35,914 nt of DNA from a virus. This document shows positions 1,499 through 22,999 of the stretch, in pieces. Within the stretch, counting starts at the first letter, position 1; the number at the start of each line of letters is the position of its first letter. Below the pieces are notes generated by a model. That model was not told the DNA's origin. It worked only from the letters and a program-made list of their open reading frames with translations, and searched no databases. The position numbers and the translations under genes were made by a program. The stretch covers positions 1-35,914 of the IMG/VR virus record IMGVR_UViG_3300042305_000931; one strand, given 5' to 3'.

Positions 1499-2704
1499 AT
1501 GCGCTATACATTGCACCACGGCGATAATCGGGAAGTACTCAAAACGTTTGCCGATAATTCTATTGATAGCATCGTCACTGACCCTCCCTATGAACTTGGC
1601 TTCATGGGGAAGAAATGGGATAGCACGGGGATTGCCTACGACCAAACATTGTGGGCGGAGTGCCTGCGAGTGCTGAAGCCAGGTGGGCACTTAATCGCCT
1701 TTGGCGGCACTCGGACATATCACCGCATGACCTGCGCCATTGAGGATGCAGGCTTTGAGATACGGGATTGTATCCAATGGATATATGGCTCGGGATTCCC
1801 GAAAAGCCTTGACGTGAGCAAGGCGATTGATAAGCAGGCAGGGGCGGAGCGTGAGGTGGTGGGTAAAGGAAAACCAATGCGTTCGCTTGGTGTCATGCAC
1901 GATGATAAATGGATAAGTGATGCTGAATATGTTCTCACCGCCCCCGCCACTCCAGAAGCCCAACAGTGGCACGGCTTTGGCACATCTCTAAAACCAGCAG
2001 TTGAGCCCGCCGTTCTTGCACGGAAGCCACTGTCCGGCACGGTGGCGGACAATGTCATGACGTGGGGGTGCGGTGCGCTCAACATTGACGGGTGCAGGGT
2101 GGGGAGTGAACAATTAACACGAAAAAAAGGTAACAGCACAACTACGTCATACGGGAGCGACCGAACATGGAATACATCTACAACACCTCGCATAGATTGG
2201 ACAGGTACAGGCCGCTGGCCCGCCAACGTCATCCTCGATGAGGAGGCGGCGCAAATGCTGGATGAGCAGAGTGGGCACGGCGCCTCCCGCTTTTTCTACG
2301 TTGCCAAGGCATCACGGGCGGAGCGGGAAGCGGGGCTGGATGGGATGGAAAAAAAGCCCACAATGAATCGAAAAATGGAAGGAAACCTTAATGTATCTGA
2401 ATGGAGAAATGATTCACGTTCGCCAAATGGGGGGTATGAAAACAAACCACCAGAACGACGTGCCAACCACCATCCCACCGTCAAACCCATCACGCTGATG
2501 CGCTACCTTGTGCGTCTTGTTACACCACCAAACGGTGTGGTGCTCGATCCGTTCATGGGTAGTGGCAGTACAGGATGTGCGGCCGTGTTGGAAAACATGC
2601 AGTTTGTAGGCATTGAACTGAACGCTGAGTACATTGAGATAGCACGGCGGCGCATTGAGTTCCATGAGTACACGGTGCGTGAAAAGAATCCGATGGGGTT
2701 ATGA
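1499..2704 (+). CDS. Site-specific DNA methyltransferase, beta class (N6-adenine or N4-cytosine)
   Basis: 401 residues. Motif IV comes first (DSIVTDPPYELGFMGKKWDS, residues about 24-43), followed by a long variable target-recognition region, then the HPTVKP segment and motif I (LDPFMGSGSTGCAA, the SAM-binding loop) near the C-terminus; this order defines the beta class of amino-methyltransferases. DPPY favours N6-adenine methylation but does not prove it. No restriction enzyme lies next to it, so it is an orphan enzyme, as is common in phages for protection from host nucleases or epigenetic marking. GTGAGG precedes the ATG, overlapping the dnaN stop. Its stop overlaps the ParB-like gene start (ATGA). 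Confidence 0.93.
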   Translation: MRYTLHHGDNREVLKTFADNSIDSIVTDPPYELGFMGKKWDSTGIAYDQTLWAECLRVLKPGGHLIAFGGTRTYHRMTCAIEDAGFEIRDCIQWIYGSGFPKSLDVSKAIDKQAGAEREVVGKGKPMRSLGVMHDDKWISDAEYVLTAPATPEAQQWHGFGTSLKPAVEPAVLARKPLSGTVADNVMTWGCGALNIDGCRVGSEQLTRKKGNSTTTSYGSDRTWNTSTTPRIDWTGTGRWPANVILDEEAAQMLDEQSGHGASRFFYVAKASRAEREAGLDGMEKKPTMNRKMEGNLNVSEWRNDSRSPNGGYENKPPERRANHHPTVKPITLMRYLVRLVTPPNGVVLDPFMGSGSTGCAAVLENMQFVGIELNAEYIEIARRRIEFHEYTVREKNPMGL

Positions 2705-3255
2705 TGTACACAAATCGCATTGTTGGACACGGAGAAGAAGCACCCGACCAGCTTCTTGCCAATCCGTATAACTTCCGAATCCACGGCAAGGCACAGCAAA
2801 TGGCACTTCACTCGGTACTGTCTGACGTGGGTGTCGTGCAAAGCGTCATCGTCAATCGTGTCAGTGGGCACATCATTGACGGTCATCTGCGTGTGGCACT
2901 TGCGCTTCGCAACGACCAACCAATGGTGCCGGTGACGTATGTGGAGCTGTCGGAGAGTGAGGAAAAGACTATCCTTGCTACGTTTGACCCTATCAGCGCA
3001 ATGGCATCCATTGACGAAGAAAAGCTCGCAGAATTGTTGCAGGAAGTGGAAGTCACGGATGGCTTGGAGCATGTCATTGAGGAATTGAAGATTGACGCTG
3101 GCATTGAGCCACCGCCGATTGACAATCCAGAGGTATTGCCATCGTTTGAGAAAACGTTTATTGTACTTATAGAGCTTGACTCGTATGAAGACTATCAGGA
3201 TGTCAAGCTGGAAATGGAACGACGGGGATTTCGCGTGAAAGGGAATCAAAAATGA
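2701..3255 (+). CDS. ParB/Srx-fold N-terminal domain protein
   Basis: 184 residues. The first 95 or so carry the ParB-like nuclease/CTPase fold signature: an N-P-Y-N-F-R segment, a VVQSVIVNR strand and the box GHIIDGHLRVALA, which corresponds to the ParB GxxxxxGHRR motif. No HTH domain follows, so it is not a full partition protein; such short ParB-domain proteins are frequent beside phage methyltransferases and terminases. The acidic C-terminal half has no motif I know. Start overlaps the methyltransferase stop by four bases; an alternative ATG is the next codon. A role in DNA modification or packaging is inferred from position only. Confidence 0.8.
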   Translation: MMYTNRIVGHGEEAPDQLLANPYNFRIHGKAQQMALHSVLSDVGVVQSVIVNRVSGHIIDGHLRVALALRNDQPMVPVTYVELSESEEKTILATFDPISAMASIDEEKLAELLQEVEVTDGLEHVIEELKIDAGIEPPPIDNPEVLPSFEKTFIVLIELDSYEDYQDVKLEMERRGFRVKGNQK

Positions 3256-3650: not shown

Positions 3651-4755
3651 AGCACGGTATCGACTGTTTGTAGGCGGTGTCGGCTCTGGAAAAACTAGGG
3701 CTGGCATCGTTGAGTGTTTTCGTCAACCAGCAAACTCTATCGGCATGGTCGTTGCGCCAACGTACACCATGCTTCGAGATGCGACGCTTCGCACGTTTCT
3801 TGACCTGTCACGACAGGCAAGCATCCTAGTCAACTTCAAGCAAAAAGAGATGATGGCGGAGTTGAAAGGCAACCGCACCATTTTGTTTCGGTCAGGCGAC
3901 GATCCAGACCATCTCCGTGGCCCGAATCTTGGATGGTTTATGCTGGATGAGGCGGCGATGCTTGAGCAAGTGGTATGGCAGGTCATGATTGGTCGTCTAC
4001 GTGAGCATCCAAGCCGTGGCTGGGCAGTGACTACGCCTCGAGGAAAAAATTGGCTTTACCGCACGTTCAACTCTGGAAAAAATTACGAAATCATCAAATC
4101 ATCCAGCAAGGACAATCCCTATCTTCCCGAGGGATTCATTGAATCACTTCTTGACTCGTACACTGCTGAGTGGCAGGCACAGGAAGTAGAGGGTGAGTTT
4201 CTTGACCCGATGGGTGCGCTGTTTCGTCGGGATTGGTTTCGTATTGTGGCATCCGCTCCGGAGAATCTTCAGTGGGTACGATATTGGGATTTGGCAGCAT
4301 CGGTAAAGACTACTGCCGACTTCACAGCGTCCGTTGCTATTGCAATGGATGACGATGGCAATTTATACTTGAAAGAGGGAATCCACCTCCGAGCGGAGTG
4401 GCCCGATGTGCAAAAGATTATGATACGCACGATGCTGGAAGAGGAACACACCTTCCACTACATTGAAGAAGCCTTGCATGGTCTTGCGGCCATTCAAGAA
4501 TTGATGCGTATCAAAGAGATTGCACATATTCACATTGGGGGAATCCGTGTCGTTAAGGATAAAGTGCAACGAGCTATGGCATGGGCAAGTAGGGCAGAAC
4601 AGGGCAAAGTGCATATTGTCGCAGGATCGTGGATGAATGAGTTCTTGGATGAAGTCACCATGTTTCCAATGGGGCGACACGATGACTACGTTGACGCTGT
4701 ATCTGGTGCAATGCCGATGCTTGGCAGTGGAGGAAAGTTACTACTATGGGGTTAA
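3616..4755 (+). CDS. terL: Terminase large subunit (packaging ATPase and nuclease)
   Basis: From this start 379 residues. ATPase: Walker A GGVGSGKT (20-27), Walker B WFMLDEAAM (Asp111, Glu112), coupling motif TTPRG (139-143). RNase H-fold nuclease: YWDLAAS with the first metal Asp at about 225, a middle acidic residue in the EEALHG region, and a last acidic cluster in HDDYVDAVSGA. All parts of a working motor are present. Start is uncertain: ATG at 3616 gives the shortest overlap with terS (35 bp) but has a poor ribosome site; ATG at 3568 has GAAGGG about 10 bases upstream and would add 16 residues; 3544 is also open. The stop overlaps the portal start. Confidence 0.95.
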   Translation: MTEPQRRFWASEARYRLFVGGVGSGKTRAGIVECFRQPANSIGMVVAPTYTMLRDATLRTFLDLSRQASILVNFKQKEMMAELKGNRTILFRSGDDPDHLRGPNLGWFMLDEAAMLEQVVWQVMIGRLREHPSRGWAVTTPRGKNWLYRTFNSGKNYEIIKSSSKDNPYLPEGFIESLLDSYTAEWQAQEVEGEFLDPMGALFRRDWFRIVASAPENLQWVRYWDLAASVKTTADFTASVAIAMDDDGNLYLKEGIHLRAEWPDVQKIMIRTMLEEEHTFHYIEEALHGLAAIQELMRIKEIAHIHIGGIRVVKDKVQRAMAWASRAEQGKVHIVAGSWMNEFLDEVTMFPMGRHDDYVDAVSGAMPMLGSGGKLLLWG

Positions 4756-6776
4756 AGTCAATTCCGATAGAAGCGTTTCCGCCAAGCTATTGGCGAGTGC
4801 TTGAAGGGAAGCTTGATGAGTCTGGCCCAATCTCTGCAACACATGCGTACCGCAACGTACCGGTGATGCGATCTGCCATTGAGCTACGAGCGCACGCAGT
4901 CAGCAACTTGCCATACATCATCATGCAAGGCGACGAAGACGTTTCGTTTAAGCCGGAAATCGTAACGTTTATGCGAACGTTGCGTCCACTGCTTCGCAAG
5001 ATTGAACTGAATCTCTGTTTGTTTGGCTCGGCGTATTTGCTTATTGAGCGCAACAAGTATGGTCTGAATGGGAAACTTCGCAGTATTCTGCCGCTCACTA
5101 TCAACCCCATCTACAATGAAACCGATGGCTTAATTGGATTTAAGCGTGTTATTGGCAACAAAGAGTACAAACTGTCTACCAAAGATGTTGTGTATTTTTG
5201 GATGGATAACGTAGAAGCAGAGGTCGGCCCTGGGCCAGCACCTGCCGAAACGGCATTGCGATCTGCAAGCACGTTGTACTTTCTTGACACATTCCTGCAA
5301 AACTTTTGGAGTCGTGGCGCAATTAAGGCTACGTTGCTTACCGTCAATGGCCCAACTCAACAGTCTGAAATGGACAAGTTGGAGAATTGGTGGAAACGGT
5401 TTATGTCAGGGGTAAAGAACTCTTGGAACACCGTGGCTATTCGCTCGGATGTTAAACCGGTAGTAGTGGGAGATACGCTCAAAGACACCGTCAATCCGGA
5501 GCTGACCGAACAGTCACGCACAGATACATTGACGGCATTTGGCGTGCCACACTCGCTGGTGTTGAGCAACGCCGCCACGTATGCTACCGCAAACGTTGAC
5601 CGCCTTGCGTTCTACGAAGACACTGTCGTGCCGCAGGCACAGATGATTTGCGATGCGCTCAATGAGCAACTGTTAGAGCGTGCTAATCTTCGCATTATGC
5701 CACGTCCGGACAAGCTGGAAACCTATCAACGCAACGAGCTGGACAAGGCGCAGGGAGTGATTCAGTTGACCGGTAGCCCTATTCTCACGGTCAACGAGGC
5801 GCGCGATATGATGGGCTATGGGCCAATCGAACAAGCACCAATGAACATTGATGACAAGTTTGACCAACCAGAGGAAATCATCAACGCCACTGCGCCACGC
5901 ATTGTTGATGAAACTCCCGAGCCGGTGTCCACCGTTCCGGAAAAGCTGACAAAGTCACTTGCAAGTACGGCTTCGATTGACCTCAATCGCTGGAAAGCAA
6001 AAGCCATTAAGAGCATTAAGTCAGGGCGATCTGCGGACGTGCGCTTTGAGTCTACAGACATTCCGTACACTGATAGCTGTCACTTAAAGCACTTGCTGTC
6101 AGAAGCAGATTGTACCGATGCGGTCAGCCATATTTTCAAGGCGTTTAAGTCTGCCCCAGGAGAATCGCTGACACCGGATGAGCAAGAACTGTATGACATT
6201 CTATCCAAAGCAATGACAAAGATTCGCCGTGATGCACAGCGACAAGGCGTATCGTTAAGCGTAGATGAGTTTGCAAAACGGCTTGGCCGTGAGGTTGCGG
6301 CAGCACTCAATCTGTCACTGACAAGTGTGTATCAGCAACTGATTGCTGAGGCTGTCCAAGCCACCGGTGTGGCAGTAGACCCATTAACGCTGACACTTCG
6401 GATTGCGCCGGAATGGGATACGTATGTAAATAACCGTGGCAAGCAAATTGAAGACACCACTCGCCGATACTTAATGGCTATTATCAACGGTGGCATCATC
6501 AGTAACGATGCGCTGTTTGATATTCCATTTGGCGACCGCCGAGCGGAGATTATTGCGGTCACCGAAATCACAAATGCTAAAGCAATGGTAATCATCCAGA
6601 TTCAGGCGATTCTTGCAGAGCAAGGCATTCAGACACAACTAATATGGGTGACGGCGCAGGACGAACTTGTGTGTAGCAAGTGCCGACCGCTCAATGGACA
6701 ACCGCAATCCGTATGGAACACCCCTCCCCCAGCGCATCCATACTGCCGATGTTCATTGCGATTGGAGGTTGTGTGA
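4746..6776 (+). CDS. Portal protein fused to a C-terminal MuF-like domain
   Basis: 676 residues, clearly longer than the usual HK97/SPP1-type portal (400-500). Residues about 1-390 look like an HK97-family portal, with the repeated surface helices and an LTAFGVPHSLVLS segment typical of the clip/stem region. Residues about 500-676 resemble the phage Mu gpF/SPP1 gp7 head morphogenesis domain, ending in a probable metal site: a C-x2-C pair (CSKC), then HPYCRC. In many phages these are two adjacent genes; here there is one frame with no stop. GGAGGAAAG lies 9 bases before the ATG. The fused domain would be carried inside the procapsid at the portal vertex (inference). Confidence 0.9.
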   Translation: MGLKSIPIEAFPPSYWRVLEGKLDESGPISATHAYRNVPVMRSAIELRAHAVSNLPYIIMQGDEDVSFKPEIVTFMRTLRPLLRKIELNLCLFGSAYLLIERNKYGLNGKLRSILPLTINPIYNETDGLIGFKRVIGNKEYKLSTKDVVYFWMDNVEAEVGPGPAPAETALRSASTLYFLDTFLQNFWSRGAIKATLLTVNGPTQQSEMDKLENWWKRFMSGVKNSWNTVAIRSDVKPVVVGDTLKDTVNPELTEQSRTDTLTAFGVPHSLVLSNAATYATANVDRLAFYEDTVVPQAQMICDALNEQLLERANLRIMPRPDKLETYQRNELDKAQGVIQLTGSPILTVNEARDMMGYGPIEQAPMNIDDKFDQPEEIINATAPRIVDETPEPVSTVPEKLTKSLASTASIDLNRWKAKAIKSIKSGRSADVRFESTDIPYTDSCHLKHLLSEADCTDAVSHIFKAFKSAPGESLTPDEQELYDILSKAMTKIRRDAQRQGVSLSVDEFAKRLGREVAAALNLSLTSVYQQLIAEAVQATGVAVDPLTLTLRIAPEWDTYVNNRGKQIEDTTRRYLMAIINGGIISNDALFDIPFGDRRAEIIAVTEITNAKAMVIIQIQAILAEQGIQTQLIWVTAQDELVCSKCRPLNGQPQSVWNTPPPAHPYCRCSLRLEVV

Positions 6777-8181: not shown

Positions 8182-8736
8182 ATGACTTGGAACACGCCAA
8201 CAAACGTTTCAACGGGAAATGCACTCACCGCGCTACTATGGAACAATCTGCTTGGCACCAGCGGATCGCTTCAGTATGTGTACAACGAGCTGACTACGAC
8301 ACAGCTGAAACGATATGTGACGCTCTACAAAAGCACCAACACCGTGTTTGCCGCCGCTGGCACGACCAACATCGCATTTGACACGATTGTGACAAGCTAC
8401 TCAGGACAACAACAAGATTTTCCAATCACTACACCGATAACAAACATTCCCATTCCAGCAAAGGGTATGTATCTTGCCACTTATCAACTACGCTCAACCG
8501 CTGCGGTAGTGGTTCGTACAAACTTTTTGTATCAAAATGGGGCAGATGCGCGATTTTTTGCAAATCATCAAACTCCTACGGTAAACGTACTGTTTACTGA
8601 TATGTGTTTGTTTTATGCACCAGATAGTCTTGGCACGTTTACAGTAAGCACGCAGGTGTCAGCCGCTGCCACGATTACCGCTGTGGCACACTCTCCAACC
8701 GATGGAAGTCAGATTCTTACAATTACGAGGATTTGA
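8182..8736 (+). CDS. Putative fibre or decoration protein (WxTP-type N-terminus)
   Basis: 184 residues. The N-terminus (TWNTPTNVSTGNALTALLWNNLL) resembles the W-x-T-P-x-T-W-x-x-G-x-x-L-T-A-x-x-x-N-x-x-L opening that I know from many environmental-phage structural proteins of unknown exact role. The rest is predicted beta-rich (TTNIAFDTIVTSYSG, GMYLATYQLRSTAAVVVRT), resembling the C1q/TNF-like C-terminal folds of phage fibres. It has a very strong ribosome site (AGGAGGATAAC) right before the ATG, so it is probably highly expressed. Together with the preceding gene it makes a surface-protein pair between portal and protease. Confidence 0.55.
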   Translation: MTWNTPTNVSTGNALTALLWNNLLGTSGSLQYVYNELTTTQLKRYVTLYKSTNTVFAAAGTTNIAFDTIVTSYSGQQQDFPITTPITNIPIPAKGMYLATYQLRSTAAVVVRTNFLYQNGADARFFANHQTPTVNVLFTDMCLFYAPDSLGTFTVSTQVSAAATITAVAHSPTDGSQILTITRI

Positions 8737-9425
8737 TGAGTAATACATGGAAAGCCCCTGCCTCGGCTCGAGAGGCAGCTCGTCGTGCGCTAGAAGTGCG
8801 CGCCAAAAAACCTCCAAGCCAGCGTGGCATGATTTCCACCGGCCTTGCACGGGCACGCCAACTGATTAACAACGATGACTTTACAGAGAATGACATTCGC
8901 ACCATGTACGCATGGTTTCGTCGTCATGCCGTAGACAAAAAAGGCAGTACATGGGGAGAGAAAGGCAAAGGCTGGCAGGCGTGGCATGGATGGGGAGGTG
9001 ATGCCGCTTTCTCATGGGTGTCACGATTGGTCAGGCAGTTTGACCGATCTACCAAAGCTATTTCCGTCAAACCGTATTATCGTAACGGTCAGCGTGTAGC
9101 TGGATACACAACCGCTCGCAGTAAGGAAAAACCGATTGCCACAAGCGGGCCAGAGGTCGTGCCAGAGCAAGTAAAGTTTCCTGCGTTATATCGCAAAGCT
9201 CGCCGTCTTGCTCGACAAAAGTACTCTAGCAAGTGGCCATCTGCTTATGCGTCTGCGTTTATGGTGGCAACCTATGAGCGTCTAGTTAAAGCCCGTGGTG
9301 GCGGAAAACCATATCGTACAACCAAATCTCTTGAAGTGAAAGCCACGACTGTGCTAATGTGTAATCAGGAGGAGATACAAGCAATGGAGTATCTTGCAAA
9401 TATCTCTGAATGGTTTCGGGAGTAA
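8736..9425 (+). CDS. Phage protein of the AREAARRALEVRAK type, upstream of protease
   Basis: 229 residues, strongly basic. The N-terminal part (about 3-90: a PASAREAARRALEVR helix, a GMISTGLARARQLI helix, FTENDIRTMYAWFRRHAVDKKG, then WHGWGGDAAFSWV) matches a module I recall from phage head-protease and portal-associated proteins, where it precedes or is fused to other head domains. A second part (FPALYRKARRLARQKYSSKWPSAYASAFMVATYERL) resembles a short domain also recurring in phage proteins. Biochemical role unknown. ATG at 8736 is preferred over the TTG one codon upstream: it overlaps the previous stop (TGATG) and has ACGAGG upstream. Confidence 0.6.
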   Translation: MSNTWKAPASAREAARRALEVRAKKPPSQRGMISTGLARARQLINNDDFTENDIRTMYAWFRRHAVDKKGSTWGEKGKGWQAWHGWGGDAAFSWVSRLVRQFDRSTKAISVKPYYRNGQRVAGYTTARSKEKPIATSGPEVVPEQVKFPALYRKARRLARQKYSSKWPSAYASAFMVATYERLVKARGGGKPYRTTKSLEVKATTVLMCNQEEIQAMEYLANISEWFRE

Positions 9426-9427
9426 AT

Positions 9428-10534
9428 ATGAACTACACTGACAAACAGATTGCGCTTGCCGATGCGCTGAACGAAATCGTTATTCGTTATGGAGCGTTTG
9501 AGGCTGGCGATGATGCAAACGGATGCGACTATCGTGATGGCGAGGAAAACGCTAACCACGGTGGCAAGTGCTGTGCCGAGTGCATATTTTTTCGTGGCGG
9601 TGGCTGTGCCATTGTGAATGGCGACATTGACGCAATGGGCATCTGTCGATATTGGATTATCACCGACCAATCTCTTGAAGAAGGAGAGTACGACGATGGC
9701 TTACGGGAAGAAGACGGGGAAGATGGACAAGATGGGCAAGCCAATGCCGAAGCCGAAGACCCCTACGAAGAAGAAATGAAGTCTGTTCTTACGACGGCTG
9801 AGCGCAACAAACTGAAAGATAGTGACTTTGTATTTCCTAGCGAACGCGCGTTTCCGATTGTAGATGGAAGCGACGTAGAAGATGCGGTTTCCTCGTGGGG
9901 CCGGTATCGTGGCAGTGAATCCTTTGACACGTTCAAGAAGCGTTTGATTGCGCTTGCCCGTCGCAAGGATCTAGAAGACAAGTTGCCAGAGGCATGGAAA
10001 GACGAAAAGAAATCGTTTGACTTTGCCATTAAGGCGATTGGCGATGGCATGTATCGTGGGCTTGGAGTAGTCTTTGGTGGCAAAGACCTCACCAAAGATG
10101 AGTTCACCAAGCACACTGATTTAGGACTTGAGCGATCTCCTGAAAACATTCCCGTGTTTTTTGAGCATGGGTTGGATGATTCGGGGATTGGCACTGCCGA
10201 ACTGCGTAAACCGATTGGTCGAGTGGTGAAAGCAGAGCAAGACGATGTTGGTGTGTGGTTTGAGTTTCAGCTCAATAAACGCTCCAAGTACGTTGAGCGC
10301 ATCAAGGATTTGATTCACTCGGGTGCGGTTGGTCTTTCAACCGGCGCACTCCCTCACGTGGTGGAAAGAGAAAACGGGCAACTCAAGCAGTGGTACATAG
10401 GTGAGTTAAGCATCACGACGCACCCTGCCGAGCCACGGACTCTTGTTCATACAACGCCAAAGGTGGAGGCTAAAGCAGATGATGAATCATCTGAGTCGCC
10501 ACGACGGCCGATAGTAATCTTTCTAAAAAAGTAA
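9428..10534 (+). CDS. Prohead protease with N-terminal Cys-rich domain (composite gene)
   Basis: 368 residues in one frame with three parts. Residues 25-80: Cys-rich module with Cys at 33, 48, 49, 52, 60 and 73, like the small metal- or Fe-S-type phage proteins that end in C-R-Y-W. Residues 84-116: acidic linker, opposite another small ORF (see 9696-9779). Residues 117-190: a domain of the type F-P-I-x-D-x-x-x-V-x-x-A-x-x-x-W found before proteases. Residues about 195-360: HK97-type prohead serine protease, with an FFEHGL His, GLSTGALPH Ser region and a THP motif; it should cleave scaffold during head maturation. ATG at 9428 has GGGAG upstream. Met117 (9776) overlaps the stop of the small ORF (ATGA) and could start a separate protease. 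Confidence 0.85.
   Translation: MNYTDKQIALADALNEIVIRYGAFEAGDDANGCDYRDGEENANHGGKCCAECIFFRGGGCAIVNGDIDAMGICRYWIITDQSLEEGEYDDGLREEDGEDGQDGQANAEAEDPYEEEMKSVLTTAERNKLKDSDFVFPSERAFPIVDGSDVEDAVSSWGRYRGSESFDTFKKRLIALARRKDLEDKLPEAWKDEKKSFDFAIKAIGDGMYRGLGVVFGGKDLTKDEFTKHTDLGLERSPENIPVFFEHGLDDSGIGTAELRKPIGRVVKAEQDDVGVWFEFQLNKRSKYVERIKDLIHSGAVGLSTGALPHVVERENGQLKQWYIGELSITTHPAEPRTLVHTTPKVEAKADDESSESPRRPIVIFLKK
9696..9779 (+). CDS. Small basic ORF nested in the protease gene (27 codons)
   Basis: In the +1 frame relative to the surrounding gene: ATG at 9696 behind AAGGAGAG, a typical ribosome site at about 9-10 bases. The product would be 27 residues, nearly all Lys, Gly, Pro, Met and Thr (starting MAYGKKTGKM), ending in KKK. 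Its TGA (9777-9779) overlaps an in-frame ATG of the surrounding gene at 9776 (ATGA), the coupling style used throughout this operon. I recall short Lys-rich MAYGKK-type ORFs near phage head genes, but cannot check. Alternatively, the acidic linker of the long frame is the selected product and this ORF is a by-product of GAA/GAC-rich DNA. Confidence 0.45.
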   Translation: MAYGKKTGKMDKMGKPMPKPKTPTKKK

Positions 10535-10543
10535 GGTAAGGAC

Positions 10544-11680
10544 ATGCCTGACACTGTAACTCTTGACATGAATGAATTGGCATCACAGGTGGCTGGATCC
10601 ATTAAGGCGGATGTCATCGCCAGCCTGTTGAATGACCCAATCGTTGCCAAGCACGGCGTGGTCACCCCTGATGGTGGCGTTGCCGACAAGGAAGTGAAGA
10701 ACTTTGCCGACTACATGGCAGCCGTGATTCGTCGTGATGACAAGCGGTTGACCGGCGTATACGGCGTAAAGGCACAGGTGGAAAGCTCTGGTACGAGTGG
10801 CGGTTATGCGGTTCCGCCTGAGTACGGTGGCATGATTGATGGCTATGCTGTTGAGTCTGGATTGATTCGTCCAGGCGCAATGGTCATGTCGGTCAACAGC
10901 CCTGAGTTTAAGGCTCCGCGCTACGACCAGACGATTGCTCCCGATGGCTCATCGGCCATGCTTGCCGGTGTGAAGTTGTTCTGGACGGCAGAAGCTGGGA
11001 ACATTCAGTCAACCCAGGTCAAGTTTGACCAGATTGATCTGCGTGCCCACAAGTTGGCAGCGTACATCCAAATCACTAGCGAGTTGCTTGCTGATGCTCC
11101 GGCCTTGTCGGGAATGCTGATTCGTCAGTTTGGTCAAGCCAAAGCATGGTTTGAGGATTACAACTTCCTTAGCGGGAATGGCGTTGGAAAGCCGTTGGGC
11201 ATCCTCAATGCACCTGCCACGTACTCGGTTACGCGCGACACCGCCACCGACTTTAAGTTGGCTGATGCCAAGAACATGATTGCCCGTATGCCAGCAAGTG
11301 CGCTTGGTCGTGCGGTATTTATCATGCACCAGAGCGTCATGCCCAAGCTGTATAGCATGGCTGAGAGCGGTAACTTTGTTACTTTCTTGCGTGACTTGCA
11401 GGGCCGTCCGGCAACGCAGTTGCTTGGTCACACTGTCTTGTTTACTGAGAAGCTTCCGGTGCTTGGCACGGCTGGCGACGTGTTGTTGGTTGACCGCAAC
11501 GCATACTACATCATGGATCGACAAGACACCACCATCAGCACCAGCGATGCTCCGGCGTTCTTGACTGACCAGATGACGATGCGTATGACCAGCCGTCTTG
11601 ATGGTCAGCCTGCATTGAACGACAAGATCACCCTTGCCGATGGTTCGTATCAGGTTTCGCCGTTTATCAAGTTGAGCTAG
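10544..11680 (+). CDS. Major capsid protein, HK97 fold
   Basis: 378 residues. After a short helical N-terminal segment (about 1-80, the delta/scaffold domain removed by the protease) the text follows HK97-family capsids: TSGGYAVPPEYGGMIDGYAVESGLIRPGA, KLFWTAEAGNIQSTQVKFDQIDLRAHKLAAYIQITSELLAD, then NFLSGNGVGKPLGILN. Its position behind the protease is canonical. AAGGTAAGGA lies before the ATG. Codon use is biased to strong translation (many GCC, ACC and CGT codons), fitting the most abundant virion protein. Confidence 0.96.
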   Translation: MPDTVTLDMNELASQVAGSIKADVIASLLNDPIVAKHGVVTPDGGVADKEVKNFADYMAAVIRRDDKRLTGVYGVKAQVESSGTSGGYAVPPEYGGMIDGYAVESGLIRPGAMVMSVNSPEFKAPRYDQTIAPDGSSAMLAGVKLFWTAEAGNIQSTQVKFDQIDLRAHKLAAYIQITSELLADAPALSGMLIRQFGQAKAWFEDYNFLSGNGVGKPLGILNAPATYSVTRDTATDFKLADAKNMIARMPASALGRAVFIMHQSVMPKLYSMAESGNFVTFLRDLQGRPATQLLGHTVLFTEKLPVLGTAGDVLLVDRNAYYIMDRQDTTISTSDAPAFLTDQMTMRMTSRLDGQPALNDKITLADGSYQVSPFIKLS

Positions 11681-21228: not shown

Positions 21229-21797
21229 TCCAGCACCTCGTCAATATCATACAGGTGAACTCGAGATTCAATCTTGCGTGGCAGGGGAAACTTTCCTGCT
21301 TGATTTGCCCATAAAGAAATCGTCTGATACGACAGTCCGGTGGCCTTTGCAATTTCCGTTCGAGTCAGATACCGGCGGTTTTGCTGAAAGACCCACTTAT
21401 GCTCTGCGTCTTTCAGTAGCTCTTTCATGTCGCTGGTAGTCGGCACAAACTTGCGCTTCCAATTTCCTGCTGACAGCCATTCTAACAGATTCTCTCGTGA
21501 TACATACGACGTGTTTGCACGTTTGTAGTGCTTAAGACCAGCATTGATGTATGAGTGAACGTTGGTCACTTCTACGCCCAATGCCTCAGCAAGGTCAGCC
21601 ACACTGTAATCGCTTGGCATCAGCGATCCACTACGCTTCCCAAACAAGCGGTGCATCCGGATAGTCACCGACCACACTGTGCGTCCAAGCTTGTGCGCTA
21701 CTTCCCGTGGCGTGGTATTCCCCTGCCACGCTTCCTGCAATAAAACATCTTCGTGTGCCTGCCACATGCGATGCGTGCGTGTTTCATATCGTGTCAT
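21165..21797 (-). CDS. DNA-binding protein with three HTH modules
   Basis: 210 residues. Module 1 (about 10-53) is a SANT/Myb- or GcrA-like HTH: HEDVLLQEAWQG, then TPREVAHKLGRTVWSVTIRMHRL. Module 2 (about 60-110) is MerR-like: YSVADLAEALGVEVTNVHSYI. Module 3 (about 143-192) is excisionase/MerR-like: LTRTEIAKATGLSYQTISLWA, followed by a basic wing and YDIDEVLEW. This layout suggests a regulator reading a composite operator. Start overlaps the methyltransferase stop (ATGA) with GGGAGA upstream. The 3' end overlaps the rusA start by 64 bases. Confidence 0.75.
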   Translation of the reverse strand: MTRYETRTHRMWQAHEDVLLQEAWQGNTTPREVAHKLGRTVWSVTIRMHRLFGKRSGSLMPSDYSVADLAEALGVEVTNVHSYINAGLKHYKRANTSYVSRENLLEWLSAGNWKRKFVPTTSDMKELLKDAEHKWVFQQNRRYLTRTEIAKATGLSYQTISLWANQAGKFPLPRKIESRVHLYDIDEVLEWSKAKNLHMLITMYLSVRGR

Positions 21798-22999
21798 TGC
21801 ATTTCTCCCATAATGCGTTTGCCAATCCACGTAGCAACCGGAACCGCCACAGCGTTGCCGAGTTGTTTGTAGCGATGTGTATCCGGCTGACCATCCGTCC
21901 ACCCATCAGGAAATCCCTGTAACCGTTCGCACTCCGTTGGTGTCAACCGTCGAACACCAATAAGTGGAATATTGTTGCCACCCGTGCCCATGCGTGATAC
22001 TAGCGTCGGCGACGTTTCTTGGTCTGGGCAGATGCGTGTAGGGTTATCCGTGTGGCACATCTCCCATAGTACTCCCACCGCATGTCTATCCATCGCCGTC
22101 AGTGTATACGACACGTTTTCCTGTGATATGCCAATTCCATTTGCACCACCCTTGTCACGGTCAATAATGTTTCCTTGAATAGCATAGGGAATTATGTTTT
22201 CTGATTCCCAATCCCCTCGTTGGCCGTGAGCTAACAGTGGACGTGCTACCTGATACGCCACAAATTGGTCTTGCATCGCAGATATGGTAAACGCTGATTC
22301 AGCTTTGTCTAGGTATCCAAGTCCTCCGGATCGCACTTGGTGTCCTCCGCGCTCTCCGCTTGGATTTCCTCCAGCTCTAATTTTCCATGACCAGCTGTGA
22401 ACATCAGAGCGTTCAGCAGCGGCTGTGGAATCTGCTTTCCCCTTACGCTTGCTCTCCGTATGATTCCGGCGCAGGCTTTCGGGCTCAAGTAGTACCGTGC
22501 ATCCACGTGGGCTTCCAAAACTTGCGACAATAAACACACGTTTTCTTCGTTGGGCAAGTCCGAAACCTTGAGCGTCAAGCACTCGCCACCCCACGCCATA
22601 CCCGCGGTTTGCCAGCCACTGAATGATGACGGCAAAATCTTCCCCTCGGGCTGAAGAGAATAACCCTGGCACGTTTTCAATGACCACCCACGCTGGTTCA
22701 GCCGTGTCGATAATTCGAGCAAACTCAAACCAGAGGCCAGACCGTTCGCCATCAAGTCCACGTCGTTTTCCTGCGACGCTAAGGTCTTGGCAGGGGAATC
22801 CTCCGCAAATAAGGTCAACTGACCCTCGCTCATAATGCACCTCTTTCACATCTGTATGCAACGTCGCCTCTGGGAAATGCCGTTGTAGCACCCTTTGGGC
22901 GTGCTTATCAATTTCGCACATGCCAATAACTTCCATCCCAGCCCGTTGAAACCCGAGGTCAAAGCCTCCAATGCCGGAGAATAGTGATAATACTTTCAT
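21794..22999 (-). CDS. DNA (cytosine-5) methyltransferase
   Basis: 401 residues with all key motifs: I (LFSGIGGFDLGF), IV (GGFPCQDLS, catalytic Cys70), VI (ENV, 108-110), VIII (QRRKR, 150-154), and after a variable target-recognition region RRLTPTECERLQGFPDGW and LGNAVAVP (IX-X). It transfers methyl from SAM to C5 of cytosine in an unknown target. No restriction partner is adjacent, so it is an orphan, presumably anti-restriction. ATG follows GAGGAACTGCC. Codons 56-231 are shared with a second ORF in the +1 frame (22309-22833). Confidence 0.95.
   Translation of the reverse strand: MKVLSLFSGIGGFDLGFQRAGMEVIGMCEIDKHAQRVLQRHFPEATLHTDVKEVHYERGSVDLICGGFPCQDLSVAGKRRGLDGERSGLWFEFARIIDTAEPAWVVIENVPGLFSSARGEDFAVIIQWLANRGYGVGWRVLDAQGFGLAQRRKRVFIVASFGSPRGCTVLLEPESLRRNHTESKRKGKADSTAAAERSDVHSWSWKIRAGGNPSGERGGHQVRSGGLGYLDKAESAFTISAMQDQFVAYQVARPLLAHGQRGDWESENIIPYAIQGNIIDRDKGGANGIGISQENVSYTLTAMDRHAVGVLWEMCHTDNPTRICPDQETSPTLVSRMGTGGNNIPLIGVRRLTPTECERLQGFPDGWTDGQPDTHRYKQLGNAVAVPVATWIGKRIMGEMQ
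22309..22833 (-). CDS. ORF nested out of frame in the cytosine methyltransferase gene
   Basis: 174 codons on the same strand as the methyltransferase, shifted by one base and lying fully inside it. ATG at 22833 has AGAGGTG six bases upstream, a good ribosome site. The product starts with SEGQLTLFAEDSPAKTLASQ and has a late segment YYLSPKACAGIIRRA. From memory, phage proteins starting LTLFAEDSPA and carrying YYLSPKACAGILRRA occur as annotated proteins; I cannot check this here. The LTLFAEDSPAKT segment is exactly the shifted reading of the codons for the catalytic GGFPCQDLSVAG loop. The function is unknown. The alternative is a passive shadow of a conserved gene, though length, start signal and the late motif argue for coding. 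Confidence 0.55.
   Translation of the reverse strand: MSEGQLTLFAEDSPAKTLASQENDVDLMANGLASGLSLLELSTRLNQRGWSLKTCQGYSLQPEGKILPSSFSGWQTAGMAWGGECLTLKVSDLPNEENVCLLSQVLEAHVDARYYLSPKACAGIIRRASVRGKQIPQPLLNALMFTAGHGKLELEEIQAESAEDTKCDPEDLDT

Follow-up and report, generated by a model that had tools for sequence, protein, structure and literature searches.

The prohead-protease-like gene of this tailed phage is very probably a single gene whose flexible linker is overprinted by a nested gene in the +1 frame. The nested open reading frame (ORF), which would encode a short, Lys-rich peptide, is in all likelihood a real gene, and codon-level comparison of relatives shows amino-acid purifying selection on the nested frame in one clade only, where the overlapped linker needs only to stay open. 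The DNA analyzed here (the window) comprises the 35,914 nucleotides of IMG/VR virus record IMGVR_UViG_3300042305_000931, and its features of interest are the following:

9428 to 10534, + strand: long gene (368 aa) made up of a Cys-rich module, an acidic linker, a phrog_16160-like segment and a prohead-protease-like region
9524 to 9646, + strand: Cys-rich module, with Cys 33, 48, 49, 52, 60 and 73 invariant in a 9-sequence alignment
9674 to 9775, + strand: acidic linker, long-frame residues 83–116, with a block-mean pLDDT of about 26–38
9681 to 9686, + strand: Shine-Dalgarno sequence AAGGAG, 9 nt before the nested ATG, with a duplex energy of -8.8 kcal/mol
9696 to 9779, + strand: nested +1-frame ORF for the Lys-rich, Arg-free 27-aa peptide MAYGKKTGKMDKMGKPMPKPKTPTKKK, a putative gene by selection, composition and clade restriction
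9759 to 9779, + strand: C-terminal motif [ST]-P-x-K-K-K-stop, conserved in the window’s clade
9776 to 9779, + strand: ATGA, in which the nested TGA (9777–9779) overlaps an in-frame ATG (9776) of the protease, with a ribosome-site energy of -1.0
9785 to 10027, + strand: segment after the linker matching phrog_16160, a PHROG family of unknown function that we take to be DUF6582
10544 to 11680, + strand: major capsid protein gene (Pfam Phage_capsid, E=1.9e-44)

An earlier note on this DNA had described the long frame as a Cys-rich module, an acidic linker and a protease joined together, and both the translation and the profile matches bear this out. The frame has a ribosome site (-6.9) at ATG 9428 and none at the further in-frame ATG 9410. 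The protease region is matched by PHROG 80/7015 (head maturation protease) in a PHROG profile search, while the matches to Pfam Peptidase_S78 (PF04586; E=0.0064, 17.1 bits versus a curated cut-off of 21) and NCBIfam TIGR01543 proheadase_HK97 (20.1 bits versus a cut-off of 59) both fall under their cut-offs. H247, S304 and E326, presumably the catalytic His, Ser and Glu with roles as in HK97 gp4, are invariant in 9 aligned protease sequences. The predicted model of the long-frame protein is poor overall (mean pLDDT 56.7), and the best PDB matches of this low-confidence model are herpesvirus proteases (E at least 6e-3, TM at most 0.33), the kind of fold expected for HK97-type prohead proteases. 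The likeness to these proteases lies in the PHROG matches, in the position of the gene directly upstream of the Phage_capsid-matching HK97-type capsid gene and in the weak herpesvirus-protease fold matches; the N-terminal Cys module and linker, together with the scores under the curated cut-offs, set the window gene apart. On these profile scores we describe the host gene as protease-like and do not file it as a member of the HK97-type prohead proteases.

The phrog_16160 segment, which lies between the linker and the protease region, is present in the window, L010, L011 and the sister clade defined below and is mostly missing from L012, L013 and L006, all three of which still have the nested ORF. 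Outside the fused gene, the Cys-rich module is found at the C-terminal end of a protein of 851 aa annotated as capsid maturation protease in Actinomycetia phage DSL-LC01 (L069:1709-4264) and, in L039–L041, close to the N-terminus of a longer frame that is also a fusion; in L012 there is a weak match (E=0.15) to an iron-oxidase profile, which we take to be HiPIP-like. The gene upstream of the protease (8733–9425 in the window) is domain-shuffled, with a phrog_2859 part and a DUF5872-like end in the window, a different C-terminal part in L010 and L011, and both kinds within one frame in L006. Elsewhere the window encodes a portal protein whose C-terminus carries a fused Phage_Mu_F-like minor head domain (4746–6776), as well as two DNA methyltransferases and a ParB-like protein (1499–2704 (+), 21794–22999 (-) and 2701–3255 (+)).

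Relatives of the fused Cys-linker-protease gene were gathered by IMG/VR scans, with the major capsid protein gene serving to find and place them, and fell into two sets. Set I, the window’s clade, comprises the window, L010, L011, L012, L013 and L006, all complete, and L038, which is truncated by its contig end inside the nested ORF and enters pair counts only. Set II, a sister clade without the ORF, comprises L016, L018, L019, L025, L026 and L027. Left out of the counts were L008/L009 (on the same contigs as L001/L002 and L021/L022), which differ from the window by 12 bases in the gene and by none in the overlap; L014/L015 and L017, near-copies or copies of L013 and L016, respectively; L005/L007/L031/L048, which have no linker; L057; and L039–L041, which have the Cys module only, in their other fusion. 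In the capsid-protein tree one branch splits ORF-bearers from non-bearers (support 100/99), and the protease tree also separates the two sets (85/84), unlike the tree of the short Cys module. No prophage relatives were found among the genome contigs searched, and a Cys-motif pattern scan returned 28 stretches, 11 of them on further contigs, with no relative among them.

The nested ORF lies wholly within the long gene, offset from it by one base, and its features are as the earlier note had reported: 27 codons, Lys-rich, with a strong ribosome site and an ATGA stop overlap. The peptide has 10 Lys and a net charge of +9. The ribosome site ranks fourth strongest of 15 starts (the nested ORF and 14 window gene starts, a ranking that leaves out ATGs 9410 and 9776). 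It is identical in L010 and L011 and weaker in L012 (-4.4), L038 (-5.7) and L013 (-4.1); L006 has no ribosome site at the scored ATG, which lies six bases upstream of the homologous ATG and is hence non-homologous. All of set I retains an ATG for the nested ORF, at the same position or close to it. The complete set I peptides are 27–43 aa long with a net charge of +9 to +12, and none contains R, H, V, I, L, F or W. Each of the six set I records has one match to the pattern [ST]PxKKK-stop and none of the six set II records has any, the pattern having been derived from these same peptides after inspection and some of the set II records being fragments. The KKK-stop is retained in L012 with TAA, whereas the other set I ORFs use TGA. 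The nested peptides match no PHROG, Pfam or NCBIfam model, the L012 peptide has no match by tblastn in 50,697 phage records (E up to 10, low-complexity filter on), and no separate small Lys-rich gene was seen elsewhere in sister-clade phages (10 sources scanned, five of them sister-clade loci).

The same note had suggested that the long frame may be three coupled genes read as one; spelled out, these would be a Cys protein, a basic peptide and a protease restarting at ATG 9776. This arrangement is very improbable. The ATGA overlap on which it draws is found in five of the six complete ORF-bearers, but it does not track the ORF, since it is also present in all six ORF-less relatives and is absent from ORF-bearing L012, where the nested ORF ends in TAA and there is no ATG; its stop follows from a Glu-Met-Lys/Met in the linker, and the ATGA is unlikely to be a coupling signal. 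There is next to no ribosome site at 9776, and a protease restart there is not supported. Cys module, linker and protease form one unbroken frame in 12 of 12 complete distinct records, six of which lack the ORF. Given each basic peptide, a stop-free long frame arises in only 7–17% of synonymous codings, so the long frame, too, is being kept open.

How much of the nested ORF is to be expected by chance? An acidic linker casts a basic shadow in the +1 frame because its GAA and GAT codons, read one base over, give AAG and ATG, Glu and Asp thus turning into Lys, Met or Arg, and it could be argued that the ORF is such a mechanical by-product, with nothing made from it. When the linker amino acids were held fixed and synonymous codons drawn at random, the window yielded a +1 ORF of at least the observed length in 87% of draws, always at least as rich in K+R, and 41% of draws gave an ORF that long together with an equally strong ribosome site; across the six ORF-bearers, K+R reached at least the observed value with P of 0.77–1.0. 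The sister-clade linkers likewise have open basic +1 frames that terminate at the same ATGA. The earlier description is thus accurate yet mostly unremarkable on its own, as the redraws reproduce the ORF, its basic composition and its ribosome site.

The redraws fail to reproduce the kind of residues used. The window’s count of Lys, as opposed to Arg, is beyond chance with the codon usage of 11 window genes (P=0.0014), and with that of the protease and capsid genes none of 20,000 draws reaches it. With each record’s own codon usage (20,000 draws each), the Lys-count P in set I is 0 for the window and L010, 0.0001 for L011, 0.0013 for L012, 0.018 for L013 and 0.050 for L006; in set II it is 0.42 for L016, 0.24 for L018 and L019 and 0.16 for L026, with one sister-clade linker, L025, also showing a Lys excess (0.0076). 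The absence of R, H, V, I, L, F and W, a residue class picked after inspecting the peptides, was matched in 0 of 50,000 synonymous draws in each of the six set I records, whereas in the six set II records counts as low as those observed have P of 0.07–0.70. An independent case was considered and set aside: the protease of Salinibacter phage 15_1 (L071:1300-3840) has an acidic Met-repeat linker (GMAMDEE...) with an Arg/Trp-rich +1 frame from which the features of the peptide are missing.

The second line of evidence is the substitution pattern. Each base at a long-frame third position sits second in its basic-frame codon, and the long-frame first position is the basic wobble position. We applied a conditional-likelihood test to the codon-aligned pairs L012–L038, window–L011, L010–L011 and L013–L006. 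Over the 40 pooled differences omega is 0.23 for the basic frame versus 1.03 for the linker frame, and adding a basic-frame constraint improves the fit (p=5.5e-5) while adding a linker constraint does not (p=0.95), the pairs being not fully independent because window–L011 and L010–L011 have a common branch. Over four gap settings the p value for the basic frame runs from 1.1e-4 (the loosest) to 5.5e-5, and an alternative run on three MAFFT-aligned pairs (31 differences) gives omega of 0.245 for the basic and 1.19 for the linker frame (p=5.7e-4). Nineteen of the 40 differences leave the basic-frame residue unchanged and alter the linker residue. Single pairs are weak (window–L010, p=0.094–0.22; L010–L011, p=0.096; L013–L006, p=0.05–0.12 by gap treatment). 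Two controls behave as ordinary coding sequence: in the upstream Cys module (81 differences) the main-frame omega is about 0.13 and the basic-frame p is 0.28, and in the sister-clade linkers (27 differences) the main-frame omega is 0.08 (p=4e-7) with a basic-frame p of 0.14.

Counts of third positions point the same way. With the 60 nt before the nested ORF left out of the outside class, long-frame third positions differ at 1/28 sites in the overlap versus 154/319 outside it for window–L011 (p=6.7e-7), at 3/28 versus 148/319 for window–L010 (p=1.2e-4) and at 0/21 versus 20/69 for L012–L038 (p=0.0023). This drop is absent in five sister-clade pairs (p 0.39–0.92), in L010–L011 (p=0.45) and in MAFFT-aligned L013–L006 (p=0.41); with codon-level gaps the last pair falls to 3–6 differing third positions of 30–31. 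L012 and L038 have 19 of 20 basic residues in common versus 15 of 20 linker residues: all five differences in the overlap alter the linker (one E to Q, three D to N, one G to D), and four of the five are silent in the basic frame. For window–L011 the corresponding figures, from hand-picked ungapped blocks, are 25/26 and 21/26.

On this pattern of change, the basic peptide is the driver of the set I overlap and the acidic linker a passenger whose amino acids are nearly free. In set II, which lacks the ORF, close relatives show conservation of the linker itself. The sister clade thereby serves as an internal negative control by which shadow and real gene can be distinguished, and a by-product without function, which explains neither the Lys-only, hydrophobic-free composition nor a protected basic frame over a linker with omega of about 1, is improbable. 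The earlier note, which had the same bases coding for an acidic linker or a basic peptide and proposed comparing relatives codon by codon in both frames, is upheld on the double coding and supplemented by the finding of selection on the basic frame. It had also held that a basic frame broken in relatives that keep the linker would refute its reading; this is the situation in the sister clade, which keeps the linker without the ORF, and not in the window’s clade, which keeps both, so the answer is clade-specific.

If the nested frame is a gene, how is it translated? Ribosomes would start independently at ATG 9696 by way of AAGGAG and release a free peptide of 27–43 aa, and the sequence features make such independent initiation likely. 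A +1 ribosomal frameshift that adds a basic tail to the Cys module, with no free peptide, would draw on two features of the window, L010 and L011: 26 to 75 open codons ahead of the ATG in the +1 frame, and conserved long-frame third positions upstream of that ATG. In L012, L038, L013 and L006, by contrast, the +1 frame is closed by stops and only 5–6 codons are open before the ATG, which leaves little room for a frameshift and favors initiation at the ATG. The retention of that ATG throughout set I also speaks against a shift, and no shift motif is visible by eye; we give frameshifting a low probability.

The upstream conservation calls for a separate comment. In the window, L010 and L011 it starts about 24 codons before the nested ATG (9626–9695), across a stretch whose equivalent is open in the +1 frame in these three records and not in L012, L038, L013 or L006, and the 27-aa peptide does not account for it. 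A constraint on the RNA or DNA, such as a structure, a pausing site or a protein-binding site, would explain why conserved nucleotides reach upstream of the ATG, and the internal Shine-Dalgarno sequence could serve as a pause. Against this, the predicted fold of 9618–9717 is no better than that of shuffled sequences (z=0.27) and the tolerated changes track basic-frame codon phase, and we regard a nucleic-acid constraint in place of a peptide as highly unlikely. Since third positions are frozen upstream of the ATG, with no RNA structure and with the +1 frame open there, an N-terminally longer product or a constraint on the initiation region is possible in these three phages.

A peptide initiated at 9696 would be made alongside the portal, protease and capsid proteins and would most likely act in head assembly or packaging. 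Its composition is like that of protamine- or H1-tail-like DNA-condensing peptides (Lys-rich, no V, I, L, F or W, and an [ST]PxK motif in six of six records), DNA condensation being what the earlier note had put forward as a possible role, and from composition and head-gene position we infer that it is a candidate disordered nucleic-acid-binding or charge-neutralizing factor. Nucleic-acid binding itself is, by the same two lines, a reasonable possibility at slightly under even chances, and the peptide may equally well bind acidic stretches of proteins. A more specific and rather doubtful proposal is that it serves as the “protamine” of a tailed phage: a microprotein like a histone tail, with Lys as its only basic residue and its gene overprinted on the protease linker, with the products of opposite charge perhaps pairing in assembly and the linker relaxed to filler; if so, a DNA-neutralizing peptide and a protease would come from one message. 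SPKK-type DNA-compacting tails occur in histones and sperm proteins (PMC9903204), and the phage peptide resembles them in being [ST]-P-x-K-rich, Lys-rich and presumably disordered. It is distinct in being a phage peptide of 27–43 aa and a putative DNA binder, whose likeness to these tails is one of composition and motif.

Two known phage systems offer partial parallels. The phiX174 E protein is a membrane lysis protein, whereas the peptide here is devoid of V, I, L, F and W and is encoded in a tailed-phage head gene. The arrangement is otherwise like that of E inside D (PMC8227390): a short gene wholly within another, in a different frame, confined to one clade and with a low-complexity product. 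Overprinted nested genes are already known, and we file the present case, which lies in the +1 frame within the prohead-protease-like gene of a tailed phage, among them. The second parallel is lambda, in which Nu3 is nested in the C gene in the same frame. There, as in the putative case of the window peptide, a maturation-protease gene encodes a second head-assembly product; the window product differs in being basic, 27–43 aa long and in the +1 frame. Nu3 is described as a scaffold that assembles with protease C and portal B, and C may degrade it (PMC3224144). A prior description of an out-of-frame or other gene nested in a head maturation protease was not found in the literature searched, and as subscription journals lay mostly outside that search this absence proves little.

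Out-of-frame nested genes of tailed-phage head modules are easily missed, because inner ORFs are as a rule thrown out and because any acidic linker can cast a basic shadow. The codon-phase substitution test and the synonymous redraws used here are applicable to other acidic linkers. We know of no basic head-assembly peptide in this phage group, and the product of the nested ORF, if made, would be a candidate for one.
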